64,000 nt of DNA, taken from contig OX422184.1 in NCBI GenBank assembly GCA_949130485.1, positions 5,436,655 through 5,500,654 of the forward strand, written 5' to 3'. Below the pieces are notes generated by a model, which ran no database searches, was not told where the DNA came from, and saw nothing but the letters and a program-made list of their open reading frames with translations. Each line of letters begins with the position of its first letter. The stretch's first letter is position 1. This document shows, piece by piece, positions 3,194-51,150 of this stretch. Both the position numbers and the translations under genes were made by a program. Source of the stretch: Agelas oroides. Its lineage: Eukaryota; Porifera; Demospongiae; Agelasida; Agelasidae.

Positions 3194-3639
3194 TTAATTG
3201 CTAAGCAGCAGTAGGTGGTTTATGGCTTTAAAAAAAGCCAGTGATTCCCCAATACCCAATGCATGAGCAAGAACTAGAGAAACAAGAACAGAGTCATAGG
3301 AGGGGCGATTTCTTTGTTGCACACCACACATGCCAACACCTTTAAGTGTGTGTTGCAGTGGTGGCATATATCCAGCACGCTGCGACCAAGGTGTTCGTCG
3401 GACCCACAACGTGGCATTTCACATAACTCTGGTCTCTGCAACATTGTCCTCTGCCTCACCAGCATCCAGCCACACTTAGCACACTTGTTTCCTTGATCAA
3501 AAGTAGCCTTCAAAAATCTGGAATGGGCCCTGTACCTAGATCTAATCAACCCTCTCACTGTTCTAATTGCATTTGCATTATTGATTGAAGGGACTGCAAC
3601 CCCCAACCTGCTCTCCACCCATCTCCAGAAATTGCTCAC
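3194..3639 (-). pseudogene. Cys-rich RING-like family, copy 1 (truncated)
   Basis: The minus-strand ORF carries paired zinc-binding motifs in order: CAKC, CEMPRC, CHHCNTH and CVVCNKEIAPP. Fuller relatives at 36.1-36.8 kb and 46.8-47.6 kb add a C-terminal CHETC and C-x2-C set, giving a RING/treble-clef-like spacing. This copy loses the reading frame just after CNKEIAPP. An N-terminal segment (FWRWVESRLGVAV) matches the other copies. The function is unknown; a ubiquitin-ligase-like zinc fold is only an inference from Cys/His spacing. It sits alone among repeats. Confidence 0.6.
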
Positions 3640-4100
3640 AACCAGCTAAACGAACCAGCTGAAATAGGCATTGGTATGATGGAAGTACAAACTGTTCCGG
3701 GGGGATTCACGCTAAATCTGATTAGGTCAAGCAGTAGTGTCATATCGCTTTGAAATGACGTCATTTCCTGTATGGAATGCTGTGACGTCATTTTCTAGCA
3801 TAATAGGAAATGAACTTACGGCTAAGCACTGATATGCCGTGCCTATATTTCAGCCCTACCCACTTTTTGCTGTGCGGTGTTCAATTCCATCCACGACCTG
3901 ATGGAGAAGCAGAAGACAGAGGGTTGTGGACTCCATCAAAGTCTGATAAAAGAAAAGCAGCAGTTAAGGGTGGTTGTAACTAAAAACCATGTGGATCCAA
4001 AAGTATACAAAAGCTGTTGTCATAAAACAACCTGGGCAATTATTTTGATGGACCCCAAGCAACTTACTGGAAGCCTCAGGTACACCTGCCTTTACATTGT
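3640..4100. other. Gene-free stretch with CRE-like motifs
   Basis: No exon is recognised. TGACGTCATTTCC-like motifs occur twice around 3757 and 3782, probably part of repeat DNA. Short open frames lack recognisable domains. Confidence 0.4.
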
Positions 4101-27568: not shown

Positions 27569-27689
27569 AGAAGAATTAATTTAGCCTCGTTCCCAGGCCC
27601 AAAGAAGTGGAGAAAGGGCCTGGTTTCAGCCATTTGCGCGTGCGCTTAATCGCTGTGGAATTCCACCGCCTCCGCATACTATTGATATA

Positions 27690-29320
27690 CAGTGGACCCA
27701 GCAAAGAGAGCAAAAAGTGCTTTTTTGACTTTACAGGCTCATATCTTATGTACACTAGCACTTAGAATGGCTTCATGTTAAGTACCTGCTAAGCATATTC
27801 AATGCTGATTGTCCTATCCAAATGGCGGGTATAGAAACAATATGGGAGTTGCACACTCTTCCTGTTATAAACTCTTGGCCAACAAACATGGCTCTTACGA
27901 GAGCCATGGAAAGGATATAGGTCAACAGAAAGGTGCTATCTTTTGAAATGCGGTGGCTCTTAGAAGAGCCGGTCAAGGATGTCCAGGTAAGTCCACGTCA
28001 ACAAGCAAAGAGTTCGTCAATGGAGATGTCAGGTATGTCAAAATGTTTGGCAATCTTCTTGAGGGTCGTGCTTGTACATGTACGTCCATTGTCAATGTTT
28101 GTGTGAGTCGTGGTTGTACGTCCACCGTCTAAGGTCAACCGTTCGTCAGTCTTTAAGTCATCTCCGAACTGTGAGGCAGATATAGATCAACAGTATCAGC
28201 GATGTACTGAACCATTTGTTAGTCCTTACATACCTCCAGGTCTGAAAGAACAGATTTGCCTCCCTCCAATGCTTCAATGACCCCCTCCTGGTGGAGGAAG
28301 GAACCGCTAATGAAGATATGGATATCAATCACCCGGTATCTCCAAGAGCGATTCCCTTCCAGGTGCATGGAGTATGGACGGGACATGATCCTCCTGTATA
28401 TGCACATGCATTATTTTTATCAAGTTATAATAACATTAAAAAAAAAAACAACCTACCCTGAGATGTCAAAGGGGCCCAGAAGCATCAGAGAAAGCCACTC
28501 TGCTGCTTCCTTAGCCACATGCCCCAACTTCTGCCTCCTACCATCCTCACACAGCCACACTTCGACACAGTTGGTGTCATAAGGATTGCCAGGGTCCGTG
28601 ACGAATCTGACTTTGCTCCCCTGCCTAGCGCCTACCTCTGCCAAGTCATAAAACTTGACCCCCCGGCAGTGACAGGTAAAGAACGCCAACAGCACACGGT
28701 TAGTCGCCATTGTTAATAACGATACACGTGACCTCGTCACGTTTAGTATTATTCGCGTGACAAGCCCTACGTCACAAAACAGCAAGATGGCCGTCGAAAA
28801 GTCGCGTTCGCGCTCACAAGGCTGCGTTTCTCGGATTTGGCCGCGGAGAAGTGTTCCCTGTCACTAGTTCCTGAAAATATAAAGACTTTGTGTTCGATAA
28901 CTGAAAGTTCAGACCTTAACTCATATGTTTGCACGCATACCATGCTAAACGCTTGGAGGGCTCAAAAATGACTACTTTGGCCCTGCTCTCTGAAAGTGCT
29001 GACAGTTAAGAATACTTTGTGCAGTTCAAGGGACCTTACCTGGGTGAGATTCCAATGGCAGTGGTTTGGGACCTTAAATTGCAATGCTTGACAAATCCCA
29101 TGCTAAAAGTCACTTTTTGACCTAGGGTTGTTTCCCCGCCATGTACTGTCACATGACTGTCACATGACTGTCACATGATGCCTTTGCACCTACCCGTCTT
29201 ACTCAGTTTTTCCTGGAGATCATGAAAATGTGTTTGTATTTCTTGTGTCATGTTTACTTTTAAAGATATGAGCCTGTAAAGTCAAAAAAGCACTTTTTGC
29301 TCTCTTTGCTGGGTCCACTG
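27690..29320. mobile_element. 1,631-bp TA-flanked element with perfect 58-bp TIRs carrying the HIRAN gene
   Basis: The first 58 bases (CAGTGGACCCAGCAAAGAGA onward) are exactly mirrored at 29263-29320. TA flanks both ends (27688-27689, 29321-29322). CAGTGG ends and the TA target fit the Tc1/mariner/pogo-type group. The only recognisable gene inside is the three-exon HIRAN gene; there is no transposase. The perfect TIRs suggest recent movement, presumably driven by a transposase elsewhere. Confidence 0.85.
27998..28710 (-). CDS. Stand-alone HIRAN-domain protein, three exons, inside a TIR element
   Basis: Exons 28710-28457, 28393-28234 and 28168-27998 use GT-AG sites, keep phase and end in TGA, giving 194 residues. 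Residues about 10-85 form a HIRAN domain: CRGVKFYD, then VRFVTDPGNPYDTNCVEVW and KLGHVAKEAAEWLSLML, the classic NPYD...V pattern followed by a GH-x-x-x-x-A segment. Known HIRAN domains, such as in HLTF, bind 3'-OH ends of single-stranded DNA; free-standing ones are known in microbes. The remainder (RVIDIHIFISG, then KKIAKHFDIPDISIDELFAC) has no recognised domain. No stops or shifts are seen, so it appears intact. It occupies the left-central part of a transposon-like element and is the only gene there. Plausible roles include DNA-end binding during transposition or repair, but that is inference. Confidence 0.85.
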
Positions 29321-29389
29321 TACTTCCGTACGCTTGTGACGCCAACATCGATACTAAACGTAACACTGTCCGTAGATTTATGATAGCAA

Positions 29390-29530: not shown

Positions 29531-29989
29531 GACTTCCATTGCGCCTCCGTCTGCTCTTTTTGCTCGAGATCTTTATTGATAAACAGCGCAAGGATGTTGG
29601 CAAAGGCGCTGAGAGAAAAGCTACTCGGGTTAACTAGCTAAAGCCTACACTGGTATGATATGGTGAATAGCGACGTCATGCAATCAACCATGTGACTTTG
29701 AAGGCGTCATTGGCACCCTCCCACTGATCAACACGTGGTTAAATCAGAGATAATTAAGCGCATGCGCAAATGGCTGAAACCAGGCCCTTTCTCCTCCTCC
29801 TCTTCGGGCCTTGGGATGAGGCTAAGAAGAATTGGACACATAGCACGTGCATGCAAGACAAAACCCTCTCAGTTCCTCCCAAGACAACCTCGGCAACAAG
29901 GGCACGGTAACAGGACCCAAGGACCACCAATTTCCCACCAAGTAGAGGTGTCTAGAGAGTCCTAGCAGCAGGAGGAAACAGAAACAGAA

Positions 29990-49467: not shown

Positions 49468-51150
49468 TTAGAGTAACTCTTTCCTCCCTGGAAGTGTCAG
49501 AAGCTGAATAGTATCTGACTTAACTTCACTGTTTGAGATGGGAACAAATGAGTGCAGTTTTCTCGTACCTGGAATTGTGCGAGATTGGTGAAAGCGTCGC
49601 TCAAGAAAATGCTGTTCTCTTTCATAATCTTCCATACTGCAATAGCCAAAGTGAACAGATGGCACAGCTGTGGATGCCCAATCGAACAGCTGGCGAGGAG
49701 TCATTATCTGGTCATTGTACGGCCTTTGTAAACTAGCTCAAGATGCTAGTCACTTTACTGTTCCACCTAGACCATCACAAGCCCCTTTTCCGTGCAAGGT
49801 GTAGAAAAATGCCACTCAGCTGATATGCCAAAATCCTCCTTGTAGAGACACAAATTGACAAAGTTTTTTCGGTTCTTGTATTGAGAAGCAGCACCATCAG
49901 AAAAATAGATTATTTTTTTCGGTTGCAACCTTTCAGGCAGCAAGGTTTCAAGAATGCTATGAAGCATTTTTGGAAAAGGTAAACTGCTATAGTGTCGTGG
50001 TGTAGGCAATCTGAAATTATCACATAGCTCAGGTGGCATAGCTCTCCAGAATCAACATAGTAGGCAACAAAAGGGTGGAGTGTTGCCTGTGAATTATTCC
50101 AGTGGAACCCTTGGACAGCATCCTGGAGAATGAAGGAGTAATTTTCAGAAAAGTCAACAGTGACCAAAATTTCTCCTGGCTGCAGACTTGTTTTGGACTT
50201 CGTATAGAATGCAGCTTGCTCCCTAGCTGTGAAAGAATGTGGGCGAAGGAGCTCTAACTTTTCACAGAAGATCTCAACGAATTCCTCAGGTGGCACACAA
50301 AATGTTTCAAGTGTTGATCTGTCAGTAGAAATCCATTGCTTGTAGACAATTTGGTCCATGTCTATTTCATCTAGGAGAACGATAAGCTCCTCTTTGAACT
50401 TCACAACACCAGGACAGGCATCACACTCACCCAAGTAGCATTTAGGCAGTGGTGGGTTGCAAATGATCCTTGCCAAGCAATGATGATATGTTGGTAGATC
50501 AGATAGTTGCATGCTAAACATCATCAATTTCACATTTTGATGAATTGTACACACACATACAGAGTGTGTACCACTGGCTCCCGCCAAGATGCAGTGTTTA
50601 AGACGAAGCTCAGCAAATTTGGAAAAACCAATTTTTGATCAGGAAATTTGTTTTTGAACTCACGATACACCTCTCTCAAGTTGCTCAGCATCAGTCGCTT
50701 TTGGACATGTACACGCTTACCCTCTTGTTTTACCGATACAAAATCCTTCTTGCCAGACATAACTCGGCTGATGTCGTCATATTCATAAAATTCATGAACA
50801 ATGTCAACTGTTTCCAGCGGCAGTGAAGGTCCAGGTTTTGGACCACGAAGAGAAAGAACCCCCTTCTCTTTTACAAGATCCTTTGATTTTCGTGCCATAT
50901 AGTTTGACACACCAAATTCCTGCTGAATTTTCTTTACTGACCAACTTTTGGGCAATACAGTAAGAATTTGCAGTTGCTCCCCCCTTTGTGGTGTTGACCG
51001 AAGCTTCTCTTTCAGCTGTTGGATCATCTCACTTCCATCATCAATAGTTTCTCTACTGATAATGGTATGTTTCATTGCTTCAGTGATCTTTTCAACCTTT
51101 TGTCTGGAGTACTTCTTCCCACATATAATATGAGAGTAAGGTCTCACCAA
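49468..51150 (-). pseudogene. Transposase-like gene of unnamed superfamily, decayed
   Basis: An N-terminal region with a helix-turn-helix look (ILTVLPKSWSVKKIQQEFGV) leads to RVHVQKRLMLSNLREVYREF. After a frame change near 50635 come AGASGTHSVCVCTIHQNVKL, PLPKCYLGECDACPG, VDFSENYSFILQDAVQGFHW and, after another shift, IIYFSDGAASQYKNRKNFVN and GKGACDGLGGTVK (last in a third frame), then MTPRQLFDWAS and FHQSRTIPGTRKLHSFVPIS. The Asp-bearing motifs (VDFSEN, FSDGAAS, DGLGG) could be an RNase H-like active site (inference). From memory, near-identical proteins are numerous in cnidarian and other invertebrate genomes, which fits a mobile element. Stops after GGTVK confirm decay. Confidence 0.7.

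Follow-up and report, generated by a model that had tools for sequence, protein, structure and literature searches.

A HIRAN gene with a histone-type mRNA 3' end in two groups of DNA transposons of the sponge Agelas oroides

Why would a mobile element carry a gene for HIRAN, a domain that grips DNA ends? The question is raised by an element in the window analyzed here, a 64,000-nt stretch of the Agelas oroides genome: its ends are perfect inverted repeats, and the one gene between them encodes a free-standing HIRAN protein. The initial annotation proposed a cargo or helper that touches transposition intermediates or repair. Judged by their titles, none of the papers found outside Repbase and the subscription literature reports a HIRAN gene from an animal transposon. 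Here, we ask to what kind of transposon the element belongs, how the HIRAN message ends, whether the gene is kept by selection, and what it may do.

The window element and its full-length relatives

The features of the element, in window coordinates, are these:

27688..27689, no strand: left target-site duplication TA, read from the sequence (TA is likewise present at other copy ends)
27690..27747, + strand: left terminal inverted repeat, 58 bp, exact reverse complement of 29263-29320
27740..27877, + strand: repeated stretch, 86-88% identical to at least 11 further places in the genome among those listed
27939..27954, - strand: CAAAAGA region directly 3' of the stem-loop, like the H4 histone downstream element of the same genome (sequence comparison)
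27955..27970, - strand: histone-type 3' stem-loop GGCTCTTCTAAGAGCC (Rfam RF00032 and genome-wide list)
27998-28168, - strand: HIRAN exon 3, including the stop codon (open frame)
28234-28393, - strand: HIRAN exon 2 (open frame)
28457-28710, - strand: HIRAN exon 1, with the start codon and the Pfam HIRAN match (open frame, Pfam)
28784..29320, no strand: long-terminal-repeat match of ~537 bp (positions 3443-3969 of the L010 element aligned to the window)
29263..29320, - strand: right terminal inverted repeat, 58 bp, exact reverse complement of 27690-27747
29321..29322, no strand: right target-site duplication TA, read from the sequence

The TA-flanked, identical 58-bp repeats that the initial annotation described at 27690-29320 are indeed exact reverse complements, and the inverted match grows to 60 bp once the flanking TA is counted on each side. 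TA adjoins all copy ends listed, the exception being a short match at window position 50100 that is not a family copy. Such identical arms would fit recent movement of the window copy. The HIRAN gene also proved to be intact and stand-alone, as described: its three exons are open throughout, the introns (63 and 65 nt) are GT-AG, and the product has 194 amino acids. Its exon-1 frame matches Pfam HIRAN (PF08797) with 33.5 bits (E 3.7e-8), over the cut-off of 24.7, as do the HIRAN frames of the relatives discussed below (L010, 42.8 bits; L013, 46.2; pogo type, 33.3). Two observations concern the surroundings. Inverted arms of 47 bp (94%) at window 27604-27650 and 29753-29799 enclose the entire element, which from these outer arms may be sitting inside an older repeat, and a partial copy of the same family (L021, C2:5434379-5435253) is found just beyond the edge of the window, ~30 kb upstream of the element.

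In a DNA search covering the whole genome, 259 Mb in 141 contigs, the best 40 of 545 candidates yielded 105 matches, so the free-standing HIRAN gene is multicopy and mobile, as had been supposed; the copy number contradicts, and rules out, a single-copy host HIRAN gene fixed in place. The initial annotation also called for a cognate transposase with the same ends, and full-length relatives supplied one. L009 (~4.0 kb) and L010 (3969 bp) are near-identical full copies with 527-bp terminal repeats and TA, in which HIRAN, close to one end, is approached from the opposite end by a convergent single-frame transposase of 626 aa; the near-identical long repeats lie close to the starts of both genes. 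HIRAN is thus the sole gene of the window copy but not of the family, whose transposase-bearing relatives have the same ends, and HIRAN as the sole cargo of the family is ruled out. What is left in the window copy is HIRAN including its 3' end, a single long end, and 58 bp of the opposite 527-bp repeat. Judged by its sequence, it is a non-autonomous internal-deletion derivative of a two-gene transposon of the IS630-Tc1-mariner type.

Other relatives vary in what they retain. L011 has both HIRAN and transposase, each with its 3' end deleted. L013 represents a diverged subfamily with the same two-gene layout, identical HIRAN intron positions, and one in-frame stop in the transposase. When 23 loci were compared with the L010 element, 10 (L016, L022, L023, L024, L007, L030, L032, L036, L037, and L043) turned out to have one internal deletion in common; it leaves both long ends and, of HIRAN, an exon-1 fragment only. 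The deletion in the window copy is a different one.

The transposase was classified from its relatives. The L010 protein alone gives weak matches to DDE_3 (E 0.1) and HTH_33 (E 0.007), and an alignment of 30 relatives has DDE_3 in 22 and HTH_33 in 13 (E 1e-3). The distance from the second D to the E is 111 residues in L010, a value found also in 23 of the remaining 29 aligned members (overall 110-132), and the sole relative in the PDB at E 0.1 is Sleeping Beauty (E 0.053). The TA duplication and a DDE_3-type domain with an HTH place the family in the IS630-Tc1-mariner group, as a DD111E element; we do not call it Sailor, from whose description it is set apart below. A protein search found 191 transposase relatives, of which the 120 listed span 74% down to 36% identity. 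Viral contigs yielded no relatives. In one scan of prokaryote genome contigs there was one relative transposase (L055). Its contig, recorded as that of a poecilosclerid sponge symbiont, stops 377 nt past the transposase match, and no HIRAN lies in the part so covered.

How tightly is HIRAN linked to this transposase? A transposase search of the genome (best 70 of 118 candidates) found three frames of the family, two of them intact (626 aa) and one altered (619 aa), along with many more diverged relatives. A listed HIRAN lies within 6 kb of 5 of the 27 best transposase places (C5, C4, C22, C2:10296830, and C2:7212787), the HIRAN at C2:7212787 being of the pogo type described below, and the transposase places L009 and L012 contain HIRAN sequence though it falls outside the HIRAN list. 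Among the same 27, the places at 58% identity or less have no listed HIRAN within 6 kb, save the pogo-type C2:7212787; the list covers the best 150 of 402 candidates, and unlisted HIRAN near diverged transposases is possible. A HIRAN profile search of proteins found 32. Among these data, P0250, from a contig of 1357 bp, combines a transposase N-terminus (84% identity with P0001 across 102 aa) and a HIRAN (67% identity with L013 across 81 aa); it is evidently a rearranged copy. Equal contig sizes suggest that the transposase and HIRAN of two further pairs, P0023/P0251 (1863786) and P0038/P0257 (524245), each share a contig. So far, the association of HIRAN with the transposase appears established for close subfamilies only.

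As a separate observation, a hairpin of histone type lies inside the transposase frame (L010:5253-5297, minus strand; GGTTCTTTTCAGAACC; 22.9 bits), in the codons of the peptide TGSFQN. It is also present in L009, L012, L013, and L014. TGSFQN is one of only 2 among 90 runs of six conserved residues with all codons identical between L010 and L013, and the motif is repeated in some relatives (P0015).

The 3' end of the HIRAN gene

To our knowledge, the histone mRNA 3' end pathway is regarded as nearly exclusive to histones. Behind the window HIRAN gene, the stop codon is followed after 27 nt by the histone-type stem-loop and then by ACCGCATTTCAAAAGA. The stem-loop scores 30.4 bits with Rfam RF00032 (Histone3; E 2.9e-6 in the stretch searched), which is under the gathering score of 34, and a scan of 10 loci without the H4 controls at the gathering threshold gave no stem-loop match. 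H4 controls from the same genome score 35.7 (L061) and 34.6 bits (L056), and the pogo-type HIRAN of L048 scores 32.2. A perfect stem and CAAAAGA are both present behind four of the six H4 loci read; the imperfect loci have one stem mismatch (L060) or CTAAAGA (L057). Within the transposon family, the stem-loop and TTTCAAAAGAT are kept in both L010 and L013 despite a dS of 1.3 in HIRAN and 1.8 in the transposase. L013 and L046 score 23.8 bits and have an extra degenerate stem-loop between the stem-loop and the downstream element.

Genome-wide, a stem-loop with CAAAAGA within 4-14 nt occurs at 204 places, the window element being among the 100 of these listed, and the reversed control pattern occurs at none. 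The Histone3 search had 43441 candidates. Its 75 best matches comprise 9 that follow H4 and 40 that follow HIRAN matches; 4 more (L009, L012, and two pogo ends) bring those behind or within HIRAN elements to 44. Of the 14 matches that exceed the gathering score, 5 are among the remaining 22, which are unclassified. Scores behind H4 run from 33.6 to 42.3, and one HIRAN-linked place, the pogo-type C2:15164437, is above gathering at 36.5. The five unclassified stem-loops above gathering, of 36.4-37.5 bits (C3:11544993, C2:10193874, C2:10442338, C3:10988448, and C8:7934059), have no H3, H4, H2A, or listed HIRAN upstream, in a comparison with H3, H4, and H2A searches; three of them have identical scores and may belong to one repeat. 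Behind other HIRAN loci (L062-L070, L044, and L027), there is no stem-loop at E 1.

In the 237-345 nt examined downstream, H4 genes lack canonical poly(A) signals just as transposase and HIRAN genes do, so this lack cannot tell one kind of 3' end from the other. From its stem-loop and downstream element, the HIRAN transcript would be processed without a poly(A) tail and would be confined to S phase.

A second HIRAN transposon and selection on the gene

The genome-wide HIRAN search, with the best 150 of 402 candidates scored, returned many genes that are not of the window type. One of these belongs to a second transposon. L048 is a TA-flanked element of 2.37 kb with 28-bp ends, a 455-aa transposase frame of pogo type, and a divergent, intronless HIRAN gene of 120 aa. 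The transposase matches DDE_1 (E 4e-28) and has a CENP-B/Tc5-type HTH DNA-binding domain, which together with the TA duplication assigns the element to the pogo/DDE_1 type. Its HIRAN stop codon is followed by 14 nt, by GGCTTTTCTAAAAGCC, and further downstream by CAAAAGAT. Profile comparison relates its HIRAN to that of the window family (probability 90%, E 1.8e-6).

Could HIRAN, by binding DNA, be a cofactor or regulator of the transposase, serving in end recognition, target choice, or titration, with a histone-type end merely for strong poly(A)-free expression? The divergent gene pair of the pogo element would suit such a partnership, and so would a possible shared promoter in the near-identical long repeats near which both window-family genes start. 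However, the transposases that accompany the two HIRAN families belong to different groups and have different ends, so that binding one specific end offers no common denominator, and we think this explanation quite unlikely.

HIRAN copies of the pogo family are far more numerous than its transposases. A search of the genome with the pogo HIRAN protein (best 150 of 1094 candidates) gave matches of at least 93% identity throughout, with an in-frame stop in 22 of the 150. The transposase search (best 95 of 174 candidates) found two intact copies, one fragmentary copy beside HIRAN, and more distant relatives; two intact transposases thus stand against at least 150 HIRAN copies. We read 27 copies, namely 20 systematic picks from a list that favours intact proteins plus 7 fetched earlier. 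Two are full, and 25 have no transposase part beside HIRAN; where both ends were recognized (23 of the 25), these HIRAN-only elements measure 702-800 bp. Of the 27 copies, 25 have the stem-loop (at most 2 edits) together with CAAAAGAT, the exceptions being L052 and L075. Two deletion junctions are frequent, ~9 nt (13 of 25) and ~33 nt (7 of 25) upstream of the HIRAN start, and both leave the whole gene in place. Other junctions occur in single copies, and the start codon is disrupted by the junction in L088 and L095. Since many of the copies read have one common junction, they are not independent events.

Derivatives without HIRAN were sought from the element ends. Among the best 40 of 300 candidates for the transposase-side end, there were none; HIRAN sequence is adjacent in all 40 (34 by the lists, 6 by fetching). 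Of the fetched ends, L094 is frameshifted, L095 is frameshifted and truncated, L091 has an in-frame deletion, and L092, L093, and L096 were read to residue 107 only. From the right end, HIRAN is present in all 32 places checked of the best 40 of 308 candidates (31 by the lists, 1 in L095).

HIRAN is also found near other transposases. At L067 (C1:23127500-23130100), a 340-aa frame combines HIRAN with a Ulp1/C48-type peptidase domain (E 8e-4, just below the Pfam cut-off), and the MULE transposase frame that adjoins it (E 2.5e-12) represents a third transposase group near HIRAN. L068 (C3:1091900-1094500) has a 315-aa HIRAN-C48 fusion frame beside a DDE_1 C-terminus (E 7.5e-4, below the cut-off), directly adjoined by a stop-free, pogo-like frame of 493 aa at C3:1094348-1095331. 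L062 and L070 have HIRAN frames near fragments that resemble pogo-type transposases by eye, without a Pfam match, and L070 also contains a Type I hammerhead ribozyme (2167-2211, + strand, 44.1 bits).

Is the gene kept by selection? The initial annotation had proposed a dN/dS test across copies, and the outcome differs by level: there is purifying selection between subfamilies (~0.23), while single pogo HIRAN-only copies look near neutral. Between subfamilies, HIRAN dN/dS is 0.22-0.24; for L010 versus L013 it is 0.22, with dS above 1, compared with 0.10 for the transposase of the same pair. The constraint is uneven, with 0.13 over codons 1-85 and 0.5 over the less constrained codons 86-138, later codons being not computable. 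The window HIRAN differs from L009 by 4 non-synonymous and 6 synonymous changes (binomial P 0.02) and from L010 by 5 and 9 (P 0.002), with an assumed neutral non-synonymous share of 0.75. These counts, together with the between-subfamily ratios, indicate that HIRAN is maintained by selection along the element lineage.

In the 27 pogo copies compared with L048, singletons comprise 12 synonymous, 22 non-synonymous, and 2 nonsense changes, plus 32 in 263 non-coding sites. Per site, nonsense changes (2/12.7) are about as frequent as synonymous ones (12/80.7), and the non-synonymous rate is ~0.55 of the synonymous (P 0.09); the selection of copies favoured high-scoring proteins. Individual pogo HIRAN copies look close to neutral, and selection on each single HIRAN-only copy is unsupported by these singletons.

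It is therefore fair to ask whether HIRAN is a mere passenger, a captured host S-phase gene that hitch-hikes without a function for the transposon. The near-neutral decay of the pogo copies points that way, as do the loss of exons 2-3 in ten deletion copies of the window family and the more diverged transposase relatives without listed HIRAN nearby. Against it stand the purifying selection between subfamilies at a dS above 1, the association of HIRAN with two transposon groups, the conservation of stem-loop and CAAAAGA between L010 and L013, and the two frequent pogo junctions that spare the whole HIRAN gene. On balance, we regard a passenger as improbable.

Possible roles of HIRAN and comparison with known systems

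Structure prediction relates the pogo protein, and less clearly the window protein, to the HIRAN domain of HLTF. A model of the window exon-1 product (84 aa, pLDDT 77) has as its top 11 structure matches 8 HLTF HIRAN chains and 3 lp_0118 chains, with E 0.03 at best, and a model of the pogo HIRAN (pLDDT 88.9) has human HLTF HIRAN as all of its first 12 matches (E 1.4e-5, TM ~0.7). In HLTF, Y72 and Y93 flank the dinucleotide cavity (PMC4666394). At these positions the window protein has F and Y; N91, D94, and the GH motif are conserved in it (residues matched in an alignment made with L010, with the numbering N90-N91-P-Y93). The Y93 position holds R in L013 and H in the pogo HIRAN, so the dinucleotide clamp is only partly conserved.

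Such proteins could work against the host. As decoys, free S-phase HIRANs would compete with a host HLTF/Rad5-type remodeller for 3' ends and weaken fork protection or silencing at the element. A free-standing HIRAN without helicase or RING, an S-phase-type 3' end, and the predicted HLTF-like fold of the pogo protein are what a decoy might look like, and frequent HIRAN-only elements are expected of any product that acts in trans. But the DNA-contact residues are conserved only in part, and the purifying selection is equally compatible with a direct helper role; we think it unlikely that HIRAN is a decoy of this kind.

The reading we prefer, with a probability of about one half, is a two-gene transposon with a HIRAN accessory protein that would be expressed in S phase and act on DNA ends or forks. 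At the level of sequence, our data document the linkage, the gene structure, the selection between subfamilies, the histone-type 3' signals, and the recurrence in a second transposon group with its many HIRAN-only copies; from there, we infer a role of HIRAN at transposition intermediates or in repair. DNA transposons depend on replication for copy gain. Like the HIRAN of HLTF, the transposon protein would, with less certainty than the predicted processing of its mRNA, bind single-stranded 3' ends at excision breaks or forks. By steering repair to use the sister, or re-insertion to occur ahead of the fork, it would let the element multiply while the DNA is replicated.

It is tempting to go further and see HIRAN as a gene that recurs in transposons and ties their cut-and-paste movement to replication through the histone mRNA pathway, reading 3' ends so that excision or repair occurs when copies can be gained; HIRAN-only elements would be satellites that, in trans, provide the factor or profit from it. 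This proposal is weakened because no HIRAN is listed near the more diverged transposase relatives, and we offer it tentatively, as possible but doubtful. We know of no element-encoded link of DNA transposons to S phase. If the proposal is true, a transposon gene that ends like a histone mRNA would provide one, HIRAN would be a non-histone client of the histone mRNA pathway, and a DNA-end-binding repair domain would have been put to use by different transposon groups. The histone-type end on a transposon gene makes the S-phase link directly testable by standard RNA and excision assays.

Each part of these elements has a known counterpart. The window family is closest in description to Sailor (DD82E). 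In PMC8533490, Sailor spacers range from DD78E to DD111E, elements are long (one Porifera element has 4115 bp), and very long terminal repeats are known from one fungal Sailor; its section 3.3 gives mostly TATA duplications and TIRs starting with GT or CC, and its main text does not contain the terms "accessory" or "second ORF." Compared with that description, the present family is likewise long and its spacer of 111 lies at the top edge of the range, but it has a TA duplication, CAGTGG ends, and an extra HIRAN gene. The second element resembles pogo/Tigger-type (DDE_1) transposons in its DDE_1 domain, Tc5-type DNA-binding domain, and TA duplications; it differs in its added divergent HIRAN with a histone-type 3' end and in that 25 of the 27 copies read have no transposase part. 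The HIRANs of HLTF and Rad5 (PDB 4s0n, 4xzg, 5bnh, and 6kcs) resemble the pogo protein in its predicted fold and share the DNA-contact motif in part, whereas the present HIRANs are free-standing, transposon-encoded, and without helicase or RING. Finally, the HIRAN 3' ends share with replication-dependent histone 3' ends (RF00032) the 6-bp stem, the 4-nt loop, the AC flank, and the downstream CAAAAGA, with a stop-to-stem-loop distance of 14-27 nt compared with 24-37 nt in the H4 genes read. They differ in a TCTA rather than TTTA loop, in scores below gathering save at one pogo-HIRAN place, and in their position behind a transposon gene.
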